From assembly GCA_903847385.1 (NCBI GenBank), contig CAINDO010000066.1, forward strand, positions 1 through 32,558: a DNA stretch of 32,558 nucleotides. The letters are read 5' to 3'. Each line of letters begins with the position of its first letter. Positions within the stretch are counted from its first letter, which is position 1. This DNA is from an uncultured Myxococcales bacterium (GTDB lineage: Bacteria; Myxococcota_A; Bradymonadia; UBA7976; UBA1532). Positions 20,015 through 30,949 of this stretch are shown in pieces. Under the pieces are notes generated by a model that saw nothing but the letters and a program-made list of their open reading frames with translations, searched no databases and had not been told where the DNA came from. Made by a program: the position numbers and the translations under genes.

Positions 20015-21805
<1,791 letters not shown>

Positions 21806-21836
21806 GTTCGCGTCCGCAGGGCCGGTGTCATGGGGG

Positions 21837-22685
21837 TCAGAAGCTGAACGAGAGTCCCTGTGCCGGGGTCGGGGCGGCCGGCGGTGGCCCGAGATCGGGC
21901 TGCACGCCGGGGGCGCTGCGCTCGCGGTTCACCTCGGTCGCATCCCGGAAGGTGAGCTGCGCGTGCACGATGCCGCCGATCGCCACCAGCAGCGCGGTGT
22001 AGCCGCAGCTCAACTGGGCGGCCTGGTAGCCCTCGGCGCGGCCGACGTCGGCGCGGGCGTAGCGGCCGGAGGGCTGCCGCAGGTTCTCGGCGGCCAGATA
22101 GAACGCGCCCGAGAGTCCAGCGAGCACGACCTGTGAGCCGAGCAGGAGGCCGCCGAGCACGGGGCGTTCGTCCTGGAACTGACCCGCTCCGAGCGGCATG
22201 GCGGCCACCAGGCGGTTGTTCCGGCGCAGCTCCAGCTTTTCGACGACGATGTTGGCCTGGCGCCGGCGCTCGTCTTCCTCGGCGAGCTGCTTCTGCAGCG
22301 CCTCGCGCTGGCGGGCGAGCTCGTCGGCCAGCGCCGTGCGGATCTCCTCGTAGAAGTTCACCGCCGGCGGCGGGACGGCGAGGGGATCCAGGTGCTTCTC
22401 GGGCTCGAGGCGAACCAGGCGTTCGAAGTACTTCCGCGCCTCGGTCTCGCGCCGCAGGTAGAAACACGAGAGCCCCAGCAGCTCGTAGCTGCGGGCCAGA
22501 TCGCGTCGGTCCGCGAGCTGGCTCGTCGGGTCCACCAGGGGGGCGAGGCGCTCGATCACCCCGGCAAAGTCGCCGTAGACGAACCAGCCCTCGGCGTCGC
22601 GCAGCACGTCCACCGGGCTGGCGCTCGCCCGCAGGGGCACCACGCCCGCGGCGACGACGGCGACGATGGCGGCGCAGCGCCTCAT
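21837..22685 (-). CDS. TPR-like exported/membrane protein, unknown function
   Basis: A 282-aa protein with an N-terminal signal peptide (MRRCAAIVAVVAAGVVPLRASA). A TPR-like helical region (about 25-105) includes YELLGLSCFYLRRETEARKYFERLVRLEPE. A predicted coiled coil (about 118-160, rich in Glu, Arg, Gln) follows. Two hydrophobic segments (about 168-195 and 225-245) sit near a Pro-rich C-terminus ending GLSFSF. It lies between the membrane Ser/Thr kinase (50 bases upstream) and the FHA-sigma54 activator (31 bases downstream) on the same strand. I know no specific family; a scaffold role in this signalling set is only a guess from position. Confidence 0.78.
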   Translation of the reverse strand: MRRCAAIVAVVAAGVVPLRASASPVDVLRDAEGWFVYGDFAGVIERLAPLVDPTSQLADRRDLARSYELLGLSCFYLRRETEARKYFERLVRLEPEKHLDPLAVPPPAVNFYEEIRTALADELARQREALQKQLAEEDERRRQANIVVEKLELRRNNRLVAAMPLGAGQFQDERPVLGGLLLGSQVVLAGLSGAFYLAAENLRQPSGRYARADVGRAEGYQAAQLSCGYTALLVAIGGIVHAQLTFRDATEVNRERSAPGVQPDLGPPPAAPTPAQGLSFSF

Positions 22686-22735
22686 GCGGGGCCGACCGCC
22701 TCAGACTGCGTGGGGGGGCTCGAACCCATGCGCGC

Positions 22736-24556
22736 TCAGAAATCCACCGCTTCCGTGGTCGCTTTGCCGGCGGCGAGGCCGACTTCGCGGGTCTGGAGGC
22801 TACCCCCCGGGTCGCCGATCGTCAAGCGCAGGGCCGCCCGCAGCTCGGTCATCGGGACCAGGATGTCGGCGTTCGTCTGGCCGAGCAGCACCCCGTCGGC
22901 CTTGCGCCTCACGGGCGCGTCCCGGTTCGAGGTGATGCGCAGGCGCGCCGGCAGGGGTTTGCAGTGGAACAGGATCTCGGGCACGACGGACTGGCCGGCG
23001 GCGATCTCCACCGGGCTCATCTGGCGCTCGCAGGCCGGGTGCCGGAAGTCGAGCACGTAGCGCCCCGGCGCCAGGGGGATGCCGCCGGCGCTGCGGACCT
23101 CGTAGGCGTAGCCGTGGCGCGCGCCGTTCACGAAGACCTCGGCGCTCCACAGGTCGGCCTTCACGGGCACGGCGATCGGCTTGGGCGGGGCGGAGACGGG
23201 CGCGACGGCCGTGTTTGTCGGCGGCGCCGAGGGCCGGGGCCTCACGGGGCGCGGCGCGTCGGACCCCTTGGCGGGGGCGGTCGCCGGGGTCGGGGGCGCG
23301 GTGGGGGCCTGGGTGGGCGCGGCGGTCGGGGGCGCGGTGGGGGGCGCGGTCGTGGCCGGGGCCCGCGCCCCGCCGGTGACCGCTGCGACGTCCGGGCCGT
23401 CCACGGGCAGCGTCGGGGGCGTGGGCCAGAGCGTGATCGCGGCGGCGGCCGCCCCGGTCGCCAGCACGCCGGCGCCCAGGCCGAAAAAGAACCGCTTGCG
23501 CCGACCGCCCCGCTCGATCTTCTGCAGCAGCGCTCGCGCGTCCGGGTGCTGCTCGTCCAGGGCGAGGACGCGGTCGAGAAAGTCCATCGCCCGGGCCGCC
23601 TGATCGGCCTCCAGGGCACGCCGCGCCGCCGCCAGGTACGCCGGGACGATGCGCGCGGGCAGGGCGTCCTCGTAGGCCGTCGGGTGATCGAAGTAGGCGG
23701 CGAGCTCCTTGGCCGGATCCGTGAGGCTGGCCTCGGCGAGCTGCGCGCGCAGGGCGTCCGCCACGACCTTGGACCGCTGCGGGCGGTCGTCCGGGTGCTT
23801 CTGCAGACACTGTTCGATGAGCCGGGCCAGCGGCTTGCCGGCCGTGGGGCGCCGCTGCAGGACCGGGTCGAAGCGACACTCCAGGATGCGGCGGAAGAGC
23901 GCCGCCGGGTTCGGGCCCGAGAAGGGGAGCACGCCGCAGACCAGCCAGTAGAGCACCGTGGCCGCGCTGAAAACGTCCGCGCGGTAGGTCACGTCCTGAC
24001 CGTCCACGACCTCGGGGGCCATGTGCGCCGGCGAGCCGAGGATGGTGCCCGTCTGCGTCAGCGTCTCCATGTCCACGAGCTGCGCGATGCCGAAGTCCAT
24101 CAGGATCGGCACGCCCGCCGGCGAGACCATCACGTTCTCGGGCTTCACGTCGCGGTGCACGATGCCGGCGAGGTGCGCGTGCTCGAGCGCATCGAAGATC
24201 GGCACCATCATCATGGCCGCGACCTCGGCCCGACGGATCGGGTGTTCGTCCACGAACGCCCGCAGGGTGGGGCCGTCGATGAACTCCGACACGATGTACG
24301 CACGCTCGGAGTCCGGCGGGGCGTAGTCGAAGACCTCGAGGAGGTTGGGGTGGTGCAGGCGCGCGACGGCCTGCGCCTCGCGCTCGAACCGTTCGCGGGA
24401 CTCGGCGCGCGAGGCCAGGTGCGGGTGCAGCACCTTGAGCGCCACCGAGCGACCGAGCGCCGGATCCCGCGCCTTGTAGACGACGGACATGCCCCCGCGG
24501 CCGATCTCGCGATCGATCTCATAGCGTCCGAGGCGGGGGGCGATGGCGGGTTCCAT
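22736..24556 (-). CDS. Membrane Ser/Thr protein kinase (eukaryotic-like)
   Basis: A 606-aa Hanks-type kinase. The kinase domain is at about 12-275: glycine loop GRGGMSVVYKA (19-29), K41 in VALKVL, catalytic loop HRDVKPEN (D136), DFG at 154-156 and MAPE. A juxtamembrane helical region (about 290-345) follows. One transmembrane segment (about 352-375, FFFGLGAGVLATGAAAAAITLW) leads to a long Pro/Thr/Ala linker and a C-terminal extracytoplasmic PEGA-like beta domain (VFVNGARHGYAYEVRSAGGIPLAPGRYVLDFRHP). All catalytic residues are present. The ATG at 24556 is preferred because the kinase domain begins 11 residues later; an in-frame GTG at 24616 would translate through an inverted repeat. No clear Shine-Dalgarno is present at either. 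It starts the run kinase, TPR protein, sigma54 activator, and is divergent from a response regulator. Confidence 0.93.
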   Translation of the reverse strand: MEPAIAPRLGRYEIDREIGRGGMSVVYKARDPALGRSVALKVLHPHLASRAESRERFEREAQAVARLHHPNLLEVFDYAPPDSERAYIVSEFIDGPTLRAFVDEHPIRRAEVAAMMMVPIFDALEHAHLAGIVHRDVKPENVMVSPAGVPILMDFGIAQLVDMETLTQTGTILGSPAHMAPEVVDGQDVTYRADVFSAATVLYWLVCGVLPFSGPNPAALFRRILECRFDPVLQRRPTAGKPLARLIEQCLQKHPDDRPQRSKVVADALRAQLAEASLTDPAKELAAYFDHPTAYEDALPARIVPAYLAAARRALEADQAARAMDFLDRVLALDEQHPDARALLQKIERGGRRKRFFFGLGAGVLATGAAAAAITLWPTPPTLPVDGPDVAAVTGGARAPATTAPPTAPPTAAPTQAPTAPPTPATAPAKGSDAPRPVRPRPSAPPTNTAVAPVSAPPKPIAVPVKADLWSAEVFVNGARHGYAYEVRSAGGIPLAPGRYVLDFRHPACERQMSPVEIAAGQSVVPEILFHCKPLPARLRITSNRDAPVRRKADGVLLGQTNADILVPMTELRAALRLTIGDPGGSLQTREVGLAAGKATTEAVDF

Positions 24557-24571
24557 GCGGGTGTCGCGCAG

Positions 24572-24600
24572 CTTACGTCCGGCGGGGTGCCGGGCGTAAG
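24572..24600. repeat. 29-bp inverted repeat between kinase and response regulator
   Basis: The arms CTTACGTCCGGC (24572-24583) and GCCGGGCGTAAG (24589-24600) match as reverse complements at 11 of 12 positions around the loop GGGGT. In a + strand RNA the one mismatch would be a G-U pair. The dyad begins 16 bases upstream of the kinase ATG and has no T run, so it is not an intrinsic terminator. It may be an operator for the divergent genes or a 5'-leader hairpin of the kinase mRNA. Confidence 0.8.
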
Positions 24601-24692
24601 GTGTCATGGGTTGCACTTGCCCGGTGCGCAGGGTTTACAAGGATGCGCGACGGGTGGATATTCGAGGCCGAACGGCGCCCGACGGATGGTTC

Positions 24693-25088
24693 ATGGCCGA
24701 AGAGAAGAAGAACATTCTGGTGATCGAGGACGAGACCCACGTCCGCACGCTCGTCAGCCGCCTGCTCGAAAAGAACGGTTACGCCGTGCGCACGGCGGAG
24801 GACGGCCTCGACGGCCTGCGGGCGCTCGAGACCTTTCGCCCCGATCTCATCATCGCCGACGTCATGATGCCCAACCTGGACGGCCTGACGTTCACCAAGG
24901 CGCTGAAGAACCGGCGCGAGACGAAGATGATCCCGGTCATCTTCCTGACCGCGAAGACGGATCCGCTCTCGATGATCGAGGGCATCAACGTCGGCGCGAA
25001 GTTCTACATCACCAAGCCGTTCCAGATTGAGGACGTGCTGGCGAAGGTGAAGAAGGTCCTCACGGAGCGCGGTCACCGGATCGATTGA
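24693..25088 (+). CDS. Single-domain response regulator (CheY-like)
   Basis: A 131-aa receiver domain with no output domain. The acidic pocket is E12-D13, the phosphoacceptor D56 (IIADVMMPNLDG), with T86 (FLTAK) and K108 (ITKPF), so all residues needed for phosphotransfer are present. It may act in a phosphorelay or by binding a partner. The ATG at 24693 (MAEEKKNILVIEDE) gives the normal receiver N-terminus; an in-frame ATG at 24606 would add 29 residues unlike the family. It is divergent from the membrane Ser/Thr kinase. Its last 29 bases overlap the 3' end of the convergent OmpA-like gene. No histidine kinase is in the window. Confidence 0.94.
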   Translation: MAEEKKNILVIEDETHVRTLVSRLLEKNGYAVRTAEDGLDGLRALETFRPDLIIADVMMPNLDGLTFTKALKNRRETKMIPVIFLTAKTDPLSMIEGINVGAKFYITKPFQIEDVLAKVKKVLTERGHRID

Positions 25089-26214
25089 GGCTCGCTGCGG
25101 CCGGCGCCTTGCGCAGCACGACGATCTCGACGCGTCGATTCCGCGACTTGCCGTCCTTCGACCGGTTGTCGGCGATGGGGTCGGCTCCGCCGCGACCGAC
25201 ACTCTCCAGTTGGCCCGCGGGCACACCGCGCGCCTCGAGTCGGGCGCGGACGGACGCGGCACGCGCCGCGCTGGTCTCGACGGCGGCCTCGGCGTCGGCG
25301 CGGGCCTCGGTGTGGCCCTCGACACGGATGGGCTGCGGGCCGGCGCCGCTCAGGAGCGCGCCCACCTGGTCGATGAGCGCGAGGCGGTGGGGCATGATCT
25401 CCGTCGAGCCATCGGCGAAGAGCTGACGCACGGTGAGCACGAGGCCGCGCCCCTCCAGGCGCGCCTCGACCTCGGGCACCCGGCTCGCCCGCGCCAGCAG
25501 CTCGCGCAGACGCGACTCGACCGCCACGCGGCGTTTCTCGTCCTCGAAGCGCGGGGTGACGTCCGCCAGCAGTCGTTGGCAGTGCAGCACGGCGCGATCC
25601 ACCGCCAGATCCGTCTCCGGCGTGGCGCGCCCGGCGGAGAGCGCCTTGAGCGCGCCGTTCAGGGCGTTGACGGCCTGGAGCTCGTCGGCCGGTGCCAGGC
25701 GCGCGGCGTCGCGGGCGTAGGATGCCTCGAGGTCGGCGAGCGCGCCGAAAATGCGCTGGGCCTGCGCGGCGTCCGGCAGCGCGCGGGTGCGCGCGGTCAT
25801 CTCGGCCATGCGCCGCGTGCGCTCCTGCGCCTCGAGCGCCGAGCGTTCGCGCTGCCGCGCGTCCGCGAGGCGTTCGTCCAGAAGGCGCTGGCGATTGAGC
25901 GTCTCGGCGAGCCGCATCTGCTGGATCTTGCGCTGGCTGTATGCCTCGGCGGCCAGAAACTGGTAGCGGGCGAGCCGGGCGAGGTGTTCGGCCTCGGTGG
26001 TGCGGCCGGCGTCCTCGGCGGCCAGGGCCTCGGCGAAGCGGGCGTCGGCCTCGCCCGTCAGTTTGGGCAGGCGCTGGGCGACGTCCTCGCCGGCCACGGA
26101 GAATCGCAGGCGCTTGTACTCGCGCAGGTCGACGGGCGCGCCGACGCCGCCGCAGGCCAGGAGTGCCGCGGCCAGGGCCACGCCGCCGAGCGTCTTGCGT
26201 CCGGCGCGTTTCAC
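25060..26214 (-). CDS. OmpA-family lipoprotein with helical N-terminal region
   Basis: A 384-aa lipoprotein expected in the outer membrane and bound to peptidoglycan. The signal peptide ends in ALLAC (C21). Residues about 40-230 are strongly helical and Ala/Arg/Glu rich, resembling the DUF4398-type region often found ahead of OmpA domains. The C-terminal OmpA domain (about 255-370) contains IRVEGHTEARADAEA, ARAASVRARLEARGV, LESVGRGGADPIADN and KSRNRRVEIVV, the peptidoglycan-binding pattern. The GTG start shares bases with the stop of the preceding coiled-coil gene (GTGA). Its 3' end overlaps the convergent response regulator by 29 bases. Confidence 0.9.
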   Translation of the reverse strand: MKRAGRKTLGGVALAAALLACGGVGAPVDLREYKRLRFSVAGEDVAQRLPKLTGEADARFAEALAAEDAGRTTEAEHLARLARYQFLAAEAYSQRKIQQMRLAETLNRQRLLDERLADARQRERSALEAQERTRRMAEMTARTRALPDAAQAQRIFGALADLEASYARDAARLAPADELQAVNALNGALKALSAGRATPETDLAVDRAVLHCQRLLADVTPRFEDEKRRVAVESRLRELLARASRVPEVEARLEGRGLVLTVRQLFADGSTEIMPHRLALIDQVGALLSGAGPQPIRVEGHTEARADAEAAVETSAARAASVRARLEARGVPAGQLESVGRGGADPIADNRSKDGKSRNRRVEIVVLRKAPAAASLNRSGDRAP

Positions 26215-26711
26215 GGCGGGGTGCTCCCCGGGGGGCCGCCGCCCGCTTCGGCGGCACGGGCGCGGGCCTCGGCCTCCGTCAACACGGTCTGCGTCTGCGC
26301 GAGCTGCGCTTCGGCCTGAACGAGCGCCTGGTCCAGCTCGGCCCGGGACAGCAGCGCGTCCACGTAGTCCATCTGGGCGGCGATCTCGGTCCGCAGGGCC
26401 TCGAACTTCGCCTGGGCCACGGCGACGCGACCTTGGGCCAGCGTGCGCGCGGCGGCGCTCCCGGCCTCTCGCGCGGCGGTCTGGGCGTCATCGAGCTCGG
26501 CGAGCACGAGCTCGGCGGCCTGGAGGTCCCGGCGCACGCCCGTGAGCGGTGCGCCGAGCTGTTCCCGCGTCTCCAGCGCGTCGAGCCGGGCGAGCTCGAG
26601 CAGTTGCTCGACCAGGAACGCGCGGGGCGACTCGGGGGTCGGCTCCGCCGCCGCCCGCGAGAGTAAGGCGAACGTCAGGATGGCGCCCCAGAGCGCCTCC
26701 CGCCCCCTCAC
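26211..26711 (-). CDS. Periplasmic coiled-coil protein, unknown function
   Basis: A 166-aa protein with a cleavable signal peptide (MRGREALWGAILTFALLSRAAA, cleavage expected before EPTPE). It is followed almost entirely by Ala/Glu/Leu-rich helix with coiled-coil periodicity (about 30-155, for example LDALETREQLGAPLTGVRRD and ALVQAEAQLAQTQTVLTEAE), then a short Pro/Gly tail. No family is recognised. Both ends are locked into the operon: its GTG start overlaps the prkA stop (GTGA), and its own stop overlaps the GTG of the OmpA lipoprotein. This makes a joint envelope function with the OmpA protein likely. Confidence 0.82.
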   Translation of the reverse strand: MRGREALWGAILTFALLSRAAAEPTPESPRAFLVEQLLELARLDALETREQLGAPLTGVRRDLQAAELVLAELDDAQTAAREAGSAAARTLAQGRVAVAQAKFEALRTEIAAQMDYVDALLSRAELDQALVQAEAQLAQTQTVLTEAEARARAAEAGGGPPGSTPP

Positions 26712-28942
26712 GGCGCGCGGTGGCGCAGCTTCAGCAGCGAGCCGACGACGTCGCGCGCGACGTCCCGGTCATAGCCGAAGTCGTGCTCCAGCCGGGTGAG
26801 CGTCTGCTCGACCTGCGCGCGCTCCTCGTCGGACAGGTGTTTGCCCTCGTCCACGATGTGCGCCAGCAGGTTGTGTTTGATGCGATCCGCCGCGGCGCGC
26901 TTCTCCTCGTAGAAGGAGTCCGTGAGCCGCGCGTGCTGGTCGGCGAAGATCTCGGTCAGATCGAACAGTGCCTCGGGGTGGTCCATGCGCCATGCGGCGA
27001 CGCGGTGCAGCACGCCCTGGCGCAGGTCCGCGGGGTTGCCGTCCTGACCGAGCCGGCGCTCGACGTCGCGCATCAGGTTCTCGTCCGGATCCTCGTAACG
27101 ACCCGTCAGCGCGTTGAGGCGCTTCTCGTTGCGGACGAAGTGCGTGACGTGATCGACGTACCGCTTGAAGAGGTCCGCCGTGCGATCGGTGTCGATCAGG
27201 CCCATGGCCACGTGGAGCTCTTCTTCGACCGTGGCCAGGTACCACTCGCGGACGACGTCGACGAAGGCCTCGGGTTTGCCGAAGTCGCCGTCCCCCTCGA
27301 CGCGCAGCCACTCGTACACCTGCGTCTGCTGGCACAGGTCGCGGAGCTCCTCGAAGAGCGAGATGGGCGAGAGGCAGCGGTAGCCGTCGCGCCGTGCGGC
27401 GCCGAGCAGGGCGGCCTTGACCTCGCGCGGGCTCGCGCCGATCCGTCCCTCGTAGGGCTTGCCCGGATCGCGCTCGTGGAACAGCGCCGGGATGTGGGCG
27501 CGCAGCTCGTTGGCGATGTCCCGCGCCAGGCCGGCGGGCATCTTGGCGTGGGCGTACAACTCGGCCTTCTGCAGCGGCGTCAGCTTGGCCAGGGCCTTGC
27601 GAAGCGGGGCGGGGAACGACTCGGGCGCCGGGCGCCGCAGACGCGTCAGCACGGCCCAGAGCGCGGCCACCGTCTCCGTGTGCGGTGCGATGGTGCGACG
27701 CAGCACGTTCGGTGTGAGCTGCTCGCGGTAGATGCGCGCTTCCTGCACGTAGTCGGTCAGGTAGGGGACCTGGACCAGCTCGATGCGCGCCTTGAAGCTG
27801 GCGAAGTCGCCCATCTCCATGAAGGCGTCCAGGTGGTTCGCGTTGCTGCTCCCGATGAACACGGTGTCCAGGTGCAGCGTCATCATGTCGAGGCTTGCGG
27901 TGCCCTTTTCGCACGTCGACAGGATGTACTTGAACGCCTCCAGCGGCCGCTTCAGGAGGTCGTTGAACTCGAGCATGCCGCGGTTGGCGTCCACCAGGTC
28001 GCCCACGGCCTCGTACAGGTTCAGGTTCTGCAGGCTCGGCGGCAGCGACGACGCGCTCCGGTCCGCTGTGATCTGGCGCGCCCCGGCGTCCACCCGCATC
28101 TGGGGGTCCACGGTGACGGCCGCGGCGCGATACCGGCGCGAGAAGTGGAACCGCTCGACCTGGATGTGCCGCAGGACCTCGCCCAGGTCGCCCTGGTTGG
28201 CCTTGAGGAGGGCGTCGTAGATCGCGCGGCTGCGAGGCGAGAGGTCGCCCTCGGTCAGGGAGTCGGGCAGGGCGGCGTCCGGGCCGAGCACGCTGCGCAG
28301 GAACTCGATGCGCGCCTCGCGGGGCAGCAGGAGCAGGGGGTGGTCGCGCAGCTCGCAGCGCAGGCGGGCGTCCACGTCGGCGTCGGACAGGTGCGCGAAG
28401 GTCGACAAGTTCTCCGTCGCCTTGGCGCCCCCGAAGCCGATGCTCGTGCGCTCGAGCTTCCGGGTGGGGAACACCCAGTTGAACGAGTAGATCGCGCCCT
28501 CGGCCTCGCGGCTGTAGTGCTCCAGCGCGCGCAGGATGCAGGCGATGAAGCTGCTCTTGGCGCTGCCGTTCGGGCCGTGCAACAGGATCAGCTTGTTGAC
28601 CCGGCCCTCGCGCACGAAGTCGGAGATCAGCCCGAAGACCTGCTCCTGCACGGCCTCGTGGCCGATCAGCGGATCGCGGCCGCCATCGAAGGCGCAGTCG
28701 AACAGCTTGTAGCGGGTGAGCTTGCCGTAGGGCCGCTCGACCTTCTCCGTGCCGTAGTGCAGAAAGCAGTCCCGAACGTAGGCGGCGGCATCCCGCGCCT
28801 GAAGCGCCGGTTGCTGGCGCACGACCTCGAGATACTCGGAGAAGGAGAGCAGGCTCTTCTCGGCCACGAACCGTTCCCGTGTGCGGGCGATCGTCTGGTC
28901 GAGAAACGCCCCGGTCTCGCGGGCTTCGGTCGGCTGGCTCAT
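26708..28942 (-). CDS. prkA: PrkA-type AAA+ serine protein kinase
   Basis: A 744-aa cytoplasmic protein of the PrkA family, longer than E. coli YeaG (about 644 aa). The N-terminal AAA+ region has Walker A GPNGSAKSS (123-131), preceded by DPLIGHEAVQEQVFGLISDF, and a VFIGSSNANHLDAF segment like the sensor region of the family. The C-terminal PrkA domain includes LSPISLFEELRDLC and a long helical end. PrkA proteins are linked to stress, starvation and sporulation responses and have been described as Ser kinases or ATP-dependent proteases. The ATG at 28942 has GAGGTG eight bases upstream; an in-frame start 90 bases earlier lies inside the previous gene. The usual partners yeaH and spoVR are not adjacent; instead it is coupled to the coiled-coil and OmpA genes. 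Confidence 0.92.
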   Translation of the reverse strand: MSQPTEARETGAFLDQTIARTRERFVAEKSLLSFSEYLEVVRQQPALQARDAAAYVRDCFLHYGTEKVERPYGKLTRYKLFDCAFDGGRDPLIGHEAVQEQVFGLISDFVREGRVNKLILLHGPNGSAKSSFIACILRALEHYSREAEGAIYSFNWVFPTRKLERTSIGFGGAKATENLSTFAHLSDADVDARLRCELRDHPLLLLPREARIEFLRSVLGPDAALPDSLTEGDLSPRSRAIYDALLKANQGDLGEVLRHIQVERFHFSRRYRAAAVTVDPQMRVDAGARQITADRSASSLPPSLQNLNLYEAVGDLVDANRGMLEFNDLLKRPLEAFKYILSTCEKGTASLDMMTLHLDTVFIGSSNANHLDAFMEMGDFASFKARIELVQVPYLTDYVQEARIYREQLTPNVLRRTIAPHTETVAALWAVLTRLRRPAPESFPAPLRKALAKLTPLQKAELYAHAKMPAGLARDIANELRAHIPALFHERDPGKPYEGRIGASPREVKAALLGAARRDGYRCLSPISLFEELRDLCQQTQVYEWLRVEGDGDFGKPEAFVDVVREWYLATVEEELHVAMGLIDTDRTADLFKRYVDHVTHFVRNEKRLNALTGRYEDPDENLMRDVERRLGQDGNPADLRQGVLHRVAAWRMDHPEALFDLTEIFADQHARLTDSFYEEKRAAADRIKHNLLAHIVDEGKHLSDEERAQVEQTLTRLEHDFGYDRDVARDVVGSLLKLRHRAP

Positions 28943-28967
28943 GTGCGGTTCACCTCGAAGCCCGGTC

Positions 28968-29474
28968 TCAGGGCTTGACGTCGACGTCCCAGGACAGCTT
29001 CTCGTCGCGGATGAGCTTGCAGGTGGTGTCATTGCACACGGAGAAGTCGCCGAGGCCGGCGAGCGTGACCTTGCCCGCCGCCGCGGCGCTGAAGGCGACG
29101 CTGAAGCGGAGCATCTCGTTGGTCAGCTCGGCGTCTTCCTTGGCGAGGTCCGCCTTGGTGACCGTGACGCCCGCCGCGGGGCTCACGCGCAGGCGGGCGG
29201 GGAACTCCAGGTTCATGTGGAAGCCGGCGGCCGGGCGGACCTCGATCACGCTGGTGGCCGGCTTGCCCGCGGCGGCGTTGCCCGCGGCGATGTGGATCGT
29301 ATACGGGGCCGACTGCGGCGCGGCGGCGGCAGCGGAGACCGGCGCGGCGGTCGGCGCCGCAGAGGCGGCGGCCGGCTGCGTGGCCGGCGCCTCGGGCTTG
29401 CGCGCCTCGGGCGTGCCCTGGCAGGCGAACGAGGTCGCGAGAACGCAGACGGCAGTGAAGGCGATACGGGACAT
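28968..29474 (-). CDS. Lipoprotein with DsbD N-terminal-like domain
   Basis: A 168-aa predicted lipoprotein: signal peptide MSRIAFTAVCVLATSFAC with C18 as anchor, an Ala/Pro linker to about residue 55, then a beta-rich domain of about 110 residues. The pattern AGFHMNLEFPARLRV near the middle and the late pair C147-NDTT-C152 resemble the thiol domain at the N-terminus of DsbD. This suggests a redox or metal-handling role in the periplasm; the assignment is by pattern only. The ATG at 29474 gives the lipoprotein signal. The next gene, prkA, starts 25 bases after its stop, so it may head that operon. Confidence 0.75.
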   Translation of the reverse strand: MSRIAFTAVCVLATSFACQGTPEARKPEAPATQPAAASAAPTAAPVSAAAAAPQSAPYTIHIAAGNAAAGKPATSVIEVRPAAGFHMNLEFPARLRVSPAAGVTVTKADLAKEDAELTNEMLRFSVAFSAAAAGKVTLAGLGDFSVCNDTTCKLIRDEKLSWDVDVKP

Positions 29475-29620: not shown

Positions 29621-30949
29621 ATGCGAAGGCCCCGCTGGCTCGGACCCTACCGCCTGCTCTACCGGATCGCCTCCGGCGGCATGGCCGAGATCTATCGGGG
29701 CACGCGTACGATGCCGGACGCCTCCCTCTGCCCGGTGGCGCTGAAGTGCATTCTGCCCCTCTACACGAGCGATCCCGAGTTCATCGAGATGCTCAAGGAC
29801 GAGGCGCGCACCTGCGGCCTGCTCGACCACCCGAACATCGCGCGGATCTACGAGCTCGGCAACGTGGAGGAGCAGTGTTTCCTGGCGATGGAGTTCGTGG
29901 ACGGCATGGACCTGCGCTCCATCGTGCGGCGGGGCCGGGAGCGCGACACCGAGCTGCTCGCGCCCTGGGCGCTGTACGTCCTGGAGCAGGCGCTGCGTGG
30001 CCTGCACGCGGCCCACGAGCGCGGCATCGTCCACCGGGACTTCAGCCCCTCGAACATCCTCGTCGGGTACGAGGGCGAGGTGAAGCTGATCGACTTCGGC
30101 ATCGCCAAGGCCGCCCACAACCGCTCGCAGACACGCAGCGGGGTCATCAAGGGCAAGGTCAAGTACATGAGCCCCGAGCAGACGATGGGCAAACGGCTCG
30201 ACGCGCGCTCGGACGTCTTCGCCGCCGGGGTCGTGCTCTACGAGGCGCTGACCGGCAATGCCCCGTTCCACGCCCCGGACGACGTCTCGCTCATGGAGGC
30301 CATCCGGCTCCAGGACCCGGACCCGCCCTCACACCACAACCCGCGCCTGCCCGCCGCCCTCGACGCCGTGCTGCAGCGCGCGCTCTCCAAGGACGTCGCC
30401 TCGCGGTTCCCGACGGCCGCGGCCTTCGCGGACGCCCTGGCGCCACTCCTGCGCGAGATGGCGCCGGGTTTCGAGCCGTCGGAGCTCGGCGCGTTCCTGT
30501 GTCGCATCTTCGCCCGGGAACGGAGGGACGCCGAAGAGCAGCTCAGCGAGTTCGACCTGGACATCTCGCCGGACGACCTCACCCCGACGGGCGAGCGGCA
30601 GAGCTATACGCGGCTGGTGGCGATCGGACCGTTCGCGGACGCCCCGGCCGAGGTCCCCCCCGAGAGCCTGCGCGACGCGGTCGAAGAGTGGCTGGCGGCG
30701 CGCCGCGCGGCGCAGGGCACGGACGCGCCCGCCGAGGCCGGCGCCGAGTCCGTCGAGTCCACGGCCTCCACGGGGCAGGGGGACGTCTGGTCCTCGGAGT
30801 CGCGCCCGGGCTGGGTGGACGAGACCGGGCGGACGCTGGAGCTCGAGGCCATCGGCGGCCGCGAGATCGAGACGGGCGAAACCGAACGCCCCGATACCGG
30901 CGTCTTCGAACGTGAGAACGAAACCACCACCCGGACCCACGATGACTGA
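29621..30949 (+). CDS. Soluble Ser/Thr protein kinase (eukaryotic-like)
   Basis: A 442-aa Hanks-type kinase without a transmembrane segment. The kinase domain is at about 8-275: IASGGMAEIYRG, K42 in VALKC, catalytic loop HRDFSPSN (D140), DFG at 158-160, and YMSPEQ. The Lys normally found in HRDxKPxN is replaced by Ser, a variant I know from many myxobacterial kinases. After the catalytic domain is a long acidic, Ser/Thr/Glu-rich and probably disordered tail (about 330-442) with several SE, TE and ET sites. The ATG at 29621 has no Shine-Dalgarno. The last bases overlap the ATG of the acyltransferase gene (ATGACTGA), so the two are probably co-translated. Confidence 0.92.
   Translation: MRRPRWLGPYRLLYRIASGGMAEIYRGTRTMPDASLCPVALKCILPLYTSDPEFIEMLKDEARTCGLLDHPNIARIYELGNVEEQCFLAMEFVDGMDLRSIVRRGRERDTELLAPWALYVLEQALRGLHAAHERGIVHRDFSPSNILVGYEGEVKLIDFGIAKAAHNRSQTRSGVIKGKVKYMSPEQTMGKRLDARSDVFAAGVVLYEALTGNAPFHAPDDVSLMEAIRLQDPDPPSHHNPRLPAALDAVLQRALSKDVASRFPTAAAFADALAPLLREMAPGFEPSELGAFLCRIFARERRDAEEQLSEFDLDISPDDLTPTGERQSYTRLVAIGPFADAPAEVPPESLRDAVEEWLAARRAAQGTDAPAEAGAESVESTASTGQGDVWSSESRPGWVDETGRTLELEAIGGREIETGETERPDTGVFERENETTTRTHDD

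Follow-up and report, generated by a model that had tools for sequence, protein, structure and literature searches.

Introduction

Why should a gene of the PrkA family stand in a tight run with genes for exported envelope proteins? The question is raised by a 32,558-nucleotide stretch of DNA from an uncultured Myxococcales bacterium (contig CAINDO010000066.1; here called the window), on which four consecutive minus-strand genes encode a lipoprotein (P1), a PrkA-type protein, a secreted coiled-coil protein (P3) and an OmpA-type lipoprotein (P4). An earlier note on this DNA held that prkA was locked to its two downstream neighbors by stop/start overlaps and suggested a PrkA-linked envelope or peptidoglycan stress module. 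Canonical PrkA, including E. coli YeaG, has roles in sporulation and in the response to starvation and osmotic stress (PMC4664914, PMC13001217), and E. coli yeaG and yeaH are functionally linked, acting jointly in nitrogen starvation (PMC4664914). The activity of canonical PrkA (kinase, protease or ATPase) is disputed (PMC13001217).

Results

The PrkA protein of the window is a paralogue

The PrkA-type gene (26708..28942, minus strand; ATG at 28942) encodes both PrkA domains, with matches to PF06798, the PrkA C-terminal domain (143.7 bits, 1e-41), and to PF08298, AAA_PrkA (86.3 bits, 3e-24), each against a cut-off of 25. As in the PrkA (YeaG) of the YeaH/YhbH-SpoVR system, there is an intact Walker A motif (GPNGSAKS, conserved) and a Walker-B-like motif. 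However, its score against the YeaG-type NCBIfam equivalog PRK15455 was 50.9 bits, below the cut-off of 576; the canonical PrkA of the same genome, at 235.5, was likewise under it. In that genome (9.5 Mb, 667 contigs, 93% complete) there are two PrkA genes: the one in the window and a canonical one on contig C4, where canonical prkA is followed by YeaH (DUF444) and then SpoVR. The two proteins share 30% identity, and in a tree of 111 sequences one branch (SH-aLRT 100) separated 90 window-type sequences from 21 canonical ones, E. coli YeaG among them. Pfam matches, identity and tree together show the window gene to be a divergent PrkA-family AAA+ ATPase, a canonical-PrkA paralogue that belongs to a separate clade, "PrkA2", spread across Myxococcota. 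The earlier note was thus right that YeaH and SpoVR do not adjoin the window gene, and both stand beside the other prkA; the window protein is a paralogue of that system's PrkA and not that PrkA itself. PrkA2 is found in genomes that carry the canonical system but forms its own clade at ~30% identity, does not adjoin yeaH or spoVR, and has exported proteins as neighbors instead. An alanine before the Walker-A lysine was considered as a PrkA2 signature and rejected, as the canonical-type PDB chain 9xip shares it. Listeria PrkA, a PASTA-domain Hanks kinase that controls peptidoglycan synthesis (PMC7286690), is unrelated to PrkA2 and has only the name in common with it, and so provides no argument for a peptidoglycan role here.

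Features of the proteins encoded beside prkA2

P1 (29474..28968, minus strand; ATG start) is a stand-alone protein of 168 residues, a small secreted lipoprotein by its lipobox (TSFAC). Residues N88 and P92 and the two members of its C-x4-C pair, C147 and C152, were invariant in an alignment of 31 sequences. The AlphaFold2 model has a core of pLDDT 97-98 predicted as an all-beta, Ig-like sandwich, with fold matches that include the Neisseria DsbD N-terminal domain 6dps (E 2.5e-3), while other Ig-like domains matched better. PF11412, the profile of that domain, gave weak matches in 17 of the 31 homologues (best 2e-4) and none for P1 of the window. The predicted fold is therefore compatible with, and not specific for, a DsbD N-terminal domain, which P1 resembles in being secreted, in its predicted beta sandwich and in the cysteine pair near its C-terminus; unlike DsbD it is without membrane and thioredoxin domains, and the profile matches are weak. 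A literature search, with most subscription journals outside its coverage, turned up no paper that connects PrkA with a DsbD-like protein.

P3 (26211..26711, minus strand) is a secreted coiled-coil protein whose GTG start lies over the prkA2 stop. P4 (25060..26214, minus strand) is a lipoprotein (lipobox ALLAC) with a long helical N-terminal part, DUF4398-like in some orthologues, and a C-terminal OmpA domain (PF00691, 63.7 bits, cut-off 27.2); its AlphaFold2 model (pLDDT 89) returned YfiB, MotB and Pal as fold matches for that domain. P4 thus shares OmpA domain, lipobox and helical N-terminal part with OmpA-type lipoproteins (Pal, YfiB, YiaD) and DUF4398/OmpA proteins, but differs from them in being paired with a secreted coiled-coil protein and at one of the two positions, an Asp and an Arg, that we take to be the diaminopimelate binders of such domains. 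The Arg position (R318) is invariant among orthologues, whereas the Asp position is Glu in P4 and variable across orthologues. Because of this replacement, a peptidoglycan role is only suggested, by the OmpA domain of P4. A literature search on SpoVR, Myxococcus and peptidoglycan returned nothing relevant.

The source genome also contains a second coiled-coil/OmpA pair (L156, 5690-7232; contig G000:C642), and a sister genome has the same extra pair (L157, 5324-6860); both adjoin ATP-grasp and poly-gamma-glutamate genes (CapB/PgsC-like, recognized by eye). These second copies suggest that coiled-coil/OmpA pairs form an envelope module of general use.

Gene order, not overlap, is the informative feature

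The positions given in the earlier note were exact: 25 bases separate the P1 stop from the prkA2 ATG, one GTGA (26711..26708) is common to the prkA2 stop and the P3 GTG start, and another (26214..26211) to the P3 stop and the P4 GTG start. Overlaps of 4-8 bases also occur in 2 of the 20 other same-strand neighbor pairs of the window (2382/2385 and 30942/30949). Since a single overlap of such size is ordinary in this window, the finding must rest on conservation instead. Among 45 prkA2/coiled-coil pairs, some species being included twice, the overlap of -4 was found only in the window and in G007 (L039/L069), with gaps of 4 to 267 bases in the rest; at the coiled-coil/OmpA junction the same overlap is common (about ten species). 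Gene starts in relatives were those of a simple codon-based caller.

The exact order P1-PrkA2-coiled coil-OmpA was present in 23 of the 29 fetched loci of the same class, in three families (f1, f6 and f7), and the whole operon occurs in a cultured member of the Bradymonadales, Lujinxingia vulgaris TMQ2 (L075). Uniqueness of the order to this genome is thereby disproved and, since the order is kept in relatives, an envelope-linked PrkA operon is real. Of the tight coupling proposed before, the conserved operon stands, while the prkA2/coiled-coil overlap proved to be lineage-specific, limited to two species. A scan of public genomes gave at least 534 candidate relatives, of which the best 80, biased to close relatives, were fetched. 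Of the loci in this set that show the gene upstream of prkA2, 60 of 76 have P1 in that place, and the coiled-coil/OmpA pair followed prkA2 in 17 of 67, all of the window's class. In a phylum sample of 141 genomes, PrkA2 was found in 58 and P1 in 84, with P1 immediately upstream of PrkA2 in 44 of the 58 (median gap 60 bases). These results show that P1-PrkA2 is the deepest linkage in the phylum and that the coiled-coil/OmpA pair was added at the level of the class. By eye, a phosphatase-like gene takes the place of the coiled coil after prkA2 in Kofleriaceae-type loci, and an APC or MATE transporter gene follows prkA2 in Polyangiaceae-type loci. The Kofleriaceae-type gene looks like one for a secreted metallophosphoesterase in L080, L084, L090, L091, L103 and L113. 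Each of 45 relatives having P1 carries a single copy. P1 was rejected as a strict marker of PrkA2, given that 29 of the 141 genomes carry it with no PrkA2 match; in one of the 29 (G168), a PrkA2 fragment adjoins P1 at a contig edge (L192). The genomes are mostly metagenome-assembled, and absence of a gene from an incomplete one is weak evidence.

Kinases and regulators around the operon

After P1, the most widely shared neighbor of prkA2 is a Hanks-type Ser/Thr kinase, STKa (29621..30949, plus strand), divergent from the operon. In 32 of 59 loci a related kinase lies divergently at position -2, immediately before P1, compared with 2.8% of genes elsewhere. On the other side, a family-conserved CheY-like response regulator (24693..25088, plus strand) is convergent with the operon, its gene and the OmpA gene (25060-26214) overlapping by 29 bases, and further downstream is a minus-strand cluster (20015..24607) encoding a second kinase (STKb), a TPR protein and an FHA protein that is also a sigma-54-type activator. 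In several genomes of families f3, f6 and f7, relatives of this cluster precede the operon, which indicates that cluster and operon travel together in differing arrangements. Because of the nearby FHA/sigma-54 activator, a sigma-54 promoter was looked for before P1, where the signal was not enriched over other genes; sigma-70 and terminator scans gave nothing useful, with one promoter-like site on the opposite strand.

PrkA2 accompanies the canonical system

Of the 141 genomes, 58 have PrkA2, 77 have DUF444/YeaH and 57 have both; YeaH occurs without PrkA2 in 20 and neither is found in 63 (Fisher 5e-21, kinship ignored). Outside the window's class the counts were 35 with both, 0 with PrkA2 only, 20 with YeaH only and 59 with neither. 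PrkA2, every canonical PrkA and SpoVR are also jointly absent from some members of families f1, f3, f10, f14 and f16, and these within-family contrasts are independent of deep kinship. In f16, PrkA2 and canonical PrkA are present in G109 and G113 and both are missing from G066, G082, G086, G089 and G149; in f3, G016 has both while G018 and G021 have neither; in f10, G064 has both and G059 neither; and G002 (f1) and G107 (f14) have neither where other members of their families have both. G113 has YeaH and canonical PrkA with no SpoVR match. These comparisons show that PrkA2 rarely occurs outside genomes that carry the canonical PrkA-YeaH-SpoVR system. There are exceptions to this dependence, in that three genomes (G005, 95% complete; G011, 75%; G048, 86%) have PrkA2 with neither canonical PrkA nor SpoVR.

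Discussion

We propose, with a probability of roughly 0.45, that PrkA2 serves as an accessory stress ATPase of the PrkA-type AAA+ kind, expressed together with envelope lipoproteins and connected to the PrkA-YeaH-SpoVR system. As read from gene order, PrkA2 would be produced along with P1, the exported lipoprotein with the thiol pair, and in the window's class also with a secreted coiled coil and an OmpA-domain lipoprotein. PrkA2 itself may be an ATP-driven cytoplasmic remodeler that belongs to the same stress or starvation program as PrkA-YeaH-SpoVR, perhaps with YeaH as a common partner or in mixed rings with canonical PrkA. The co-expressed lipoproteins would adjust the envelope within that program, with P1 perhaps sensing thiol/redox state or a bound ligand in the periplasm, and the neighboring Hanks kinases and FHA regulator would probably act as switches, either of the operon or of the ATPase. 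A bolder form, which we consider doubtful, is a Myxococcota-wide second PrkA system that would work with unlinked YeaH-SpoVR, be set by the Cys-pair lipoprotein and a Hanks kinase, and act on the envelope.

The claim that prkA is locked to the envelope pair is not supported by the comparison with relatives. A rival reading is that the genes share a promoter only, PrkA2 and the envelope proteins being required in one growth phase but not linked in mechanism, and that prkA2 was inserted into, or is lost from, a self-sufficient envelope trio. P1, coiled coil and OmpA are contiguous in G002, a member of the window's family with no PrkA of any kind, in which the trio is followed by the same response regulator, STKb, TPR and FHA genes; the trio likewise occurs in G018, G024 and G027, all PrkA-less, and in G030, which lacks PrkA2, P1 adjoins the coiled coil by coordinates. 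The f4 genomes keep the coiled-coil/OmpA pair alone, second copies of the pair lie by the poly-gamma-glutamate-like genes described above, and no such pair stands beside PrkA2 outside the class. The envelope proteins, which persist where PrkA is missing, therefore do not need PrkA2. However, adjacency of P1 and PrkA2 is kept over most of the phylum while the downstream genes change, and the pair has stayed by PrkA2 after inversion, being convergent on prkA2 in L053 (G016) and divergent upstream of it in L050 (G019). On balance we consider a shared promoter with no further link possible but somewhat unlikely. In G002, the place of the divergent kinase (L144, 4413-5572) holds no called gene and may contain a remnant. 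A possible PrkA fragment of ~31-40% identity near a coiled-coil match was seen in G013 (L149; G013:C100:23710-24750), a genome with PrkA2 on another contig.

Another rival gives the operon neighbors little weight: PrkA2 could be a diverged subunit or regulator of canonical PrkA within a mixed ring, or else a second ATPase that works with the same YeaH partner. The presence of YeaH in 57 of the 58 PrkA2 genomes and the repeated joint absences would fit such a role, both proteins keep Walker A and the PrkA domains, and an AAA+ ATPase acting with a second protein is a known pattern, as in NorQ-NorD and RavA-ViaA (PMC9976466, PMC10585395). We nevertheless consider it distinctly unlikely: the three genomes with PrkA2 in which canonical PrkA and SpoVR are both missing speak against it, the identity is only about 30%, and Pfam shows no VWA match in the genome's own DUF444 protein, so that an analogy with VWA-partner systems would be tentative. 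That PrkA2 is a Ser/Thr kinase phosphorylating the co-encoded coiled-coil and OmpA proteins is very improbable in spite of the family name and a report, as cited in PMC4664914, of in vitro kinase activity for recombinant YeaG, since P3 and P4 carry signals for export and PrkA2 lacks one, so that after export both would be out of direct reach of a cytoplasmic ATPase or kinase and direct phosphorylation is unlikely, and since B. anthracis PrkA had no detectable kinase or protease activity and its C-terminal part lacks a kinase P-loop (PMC13001217). At the position aligned with YeaG K426, where the alignment is uncertain, PrkA2 has a residue other than Lys. "PrkA serine kinase" as a plain annotation of prkA2 is misleading.

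With respect to the envelope or peptidoglycan module of the earlier note, the envelope operon holds, and the peptidoglycan part, with Glu in place of the OmpA Asp, is only suggested. The PrkA-YeaH-SpoVR system is widespread and is needed for sporulation and under starvation or osmotic stress, and its kinase label is disputed. If the bolder, Myxococcota-wide form of our reading is true, this long-unexplained pathway would act on the cell envelope. A paralogue clade that is physically linked to envelope genes and follows the gains and losses of the canonical system offers a direct genetic handle on the pathway's site of action.
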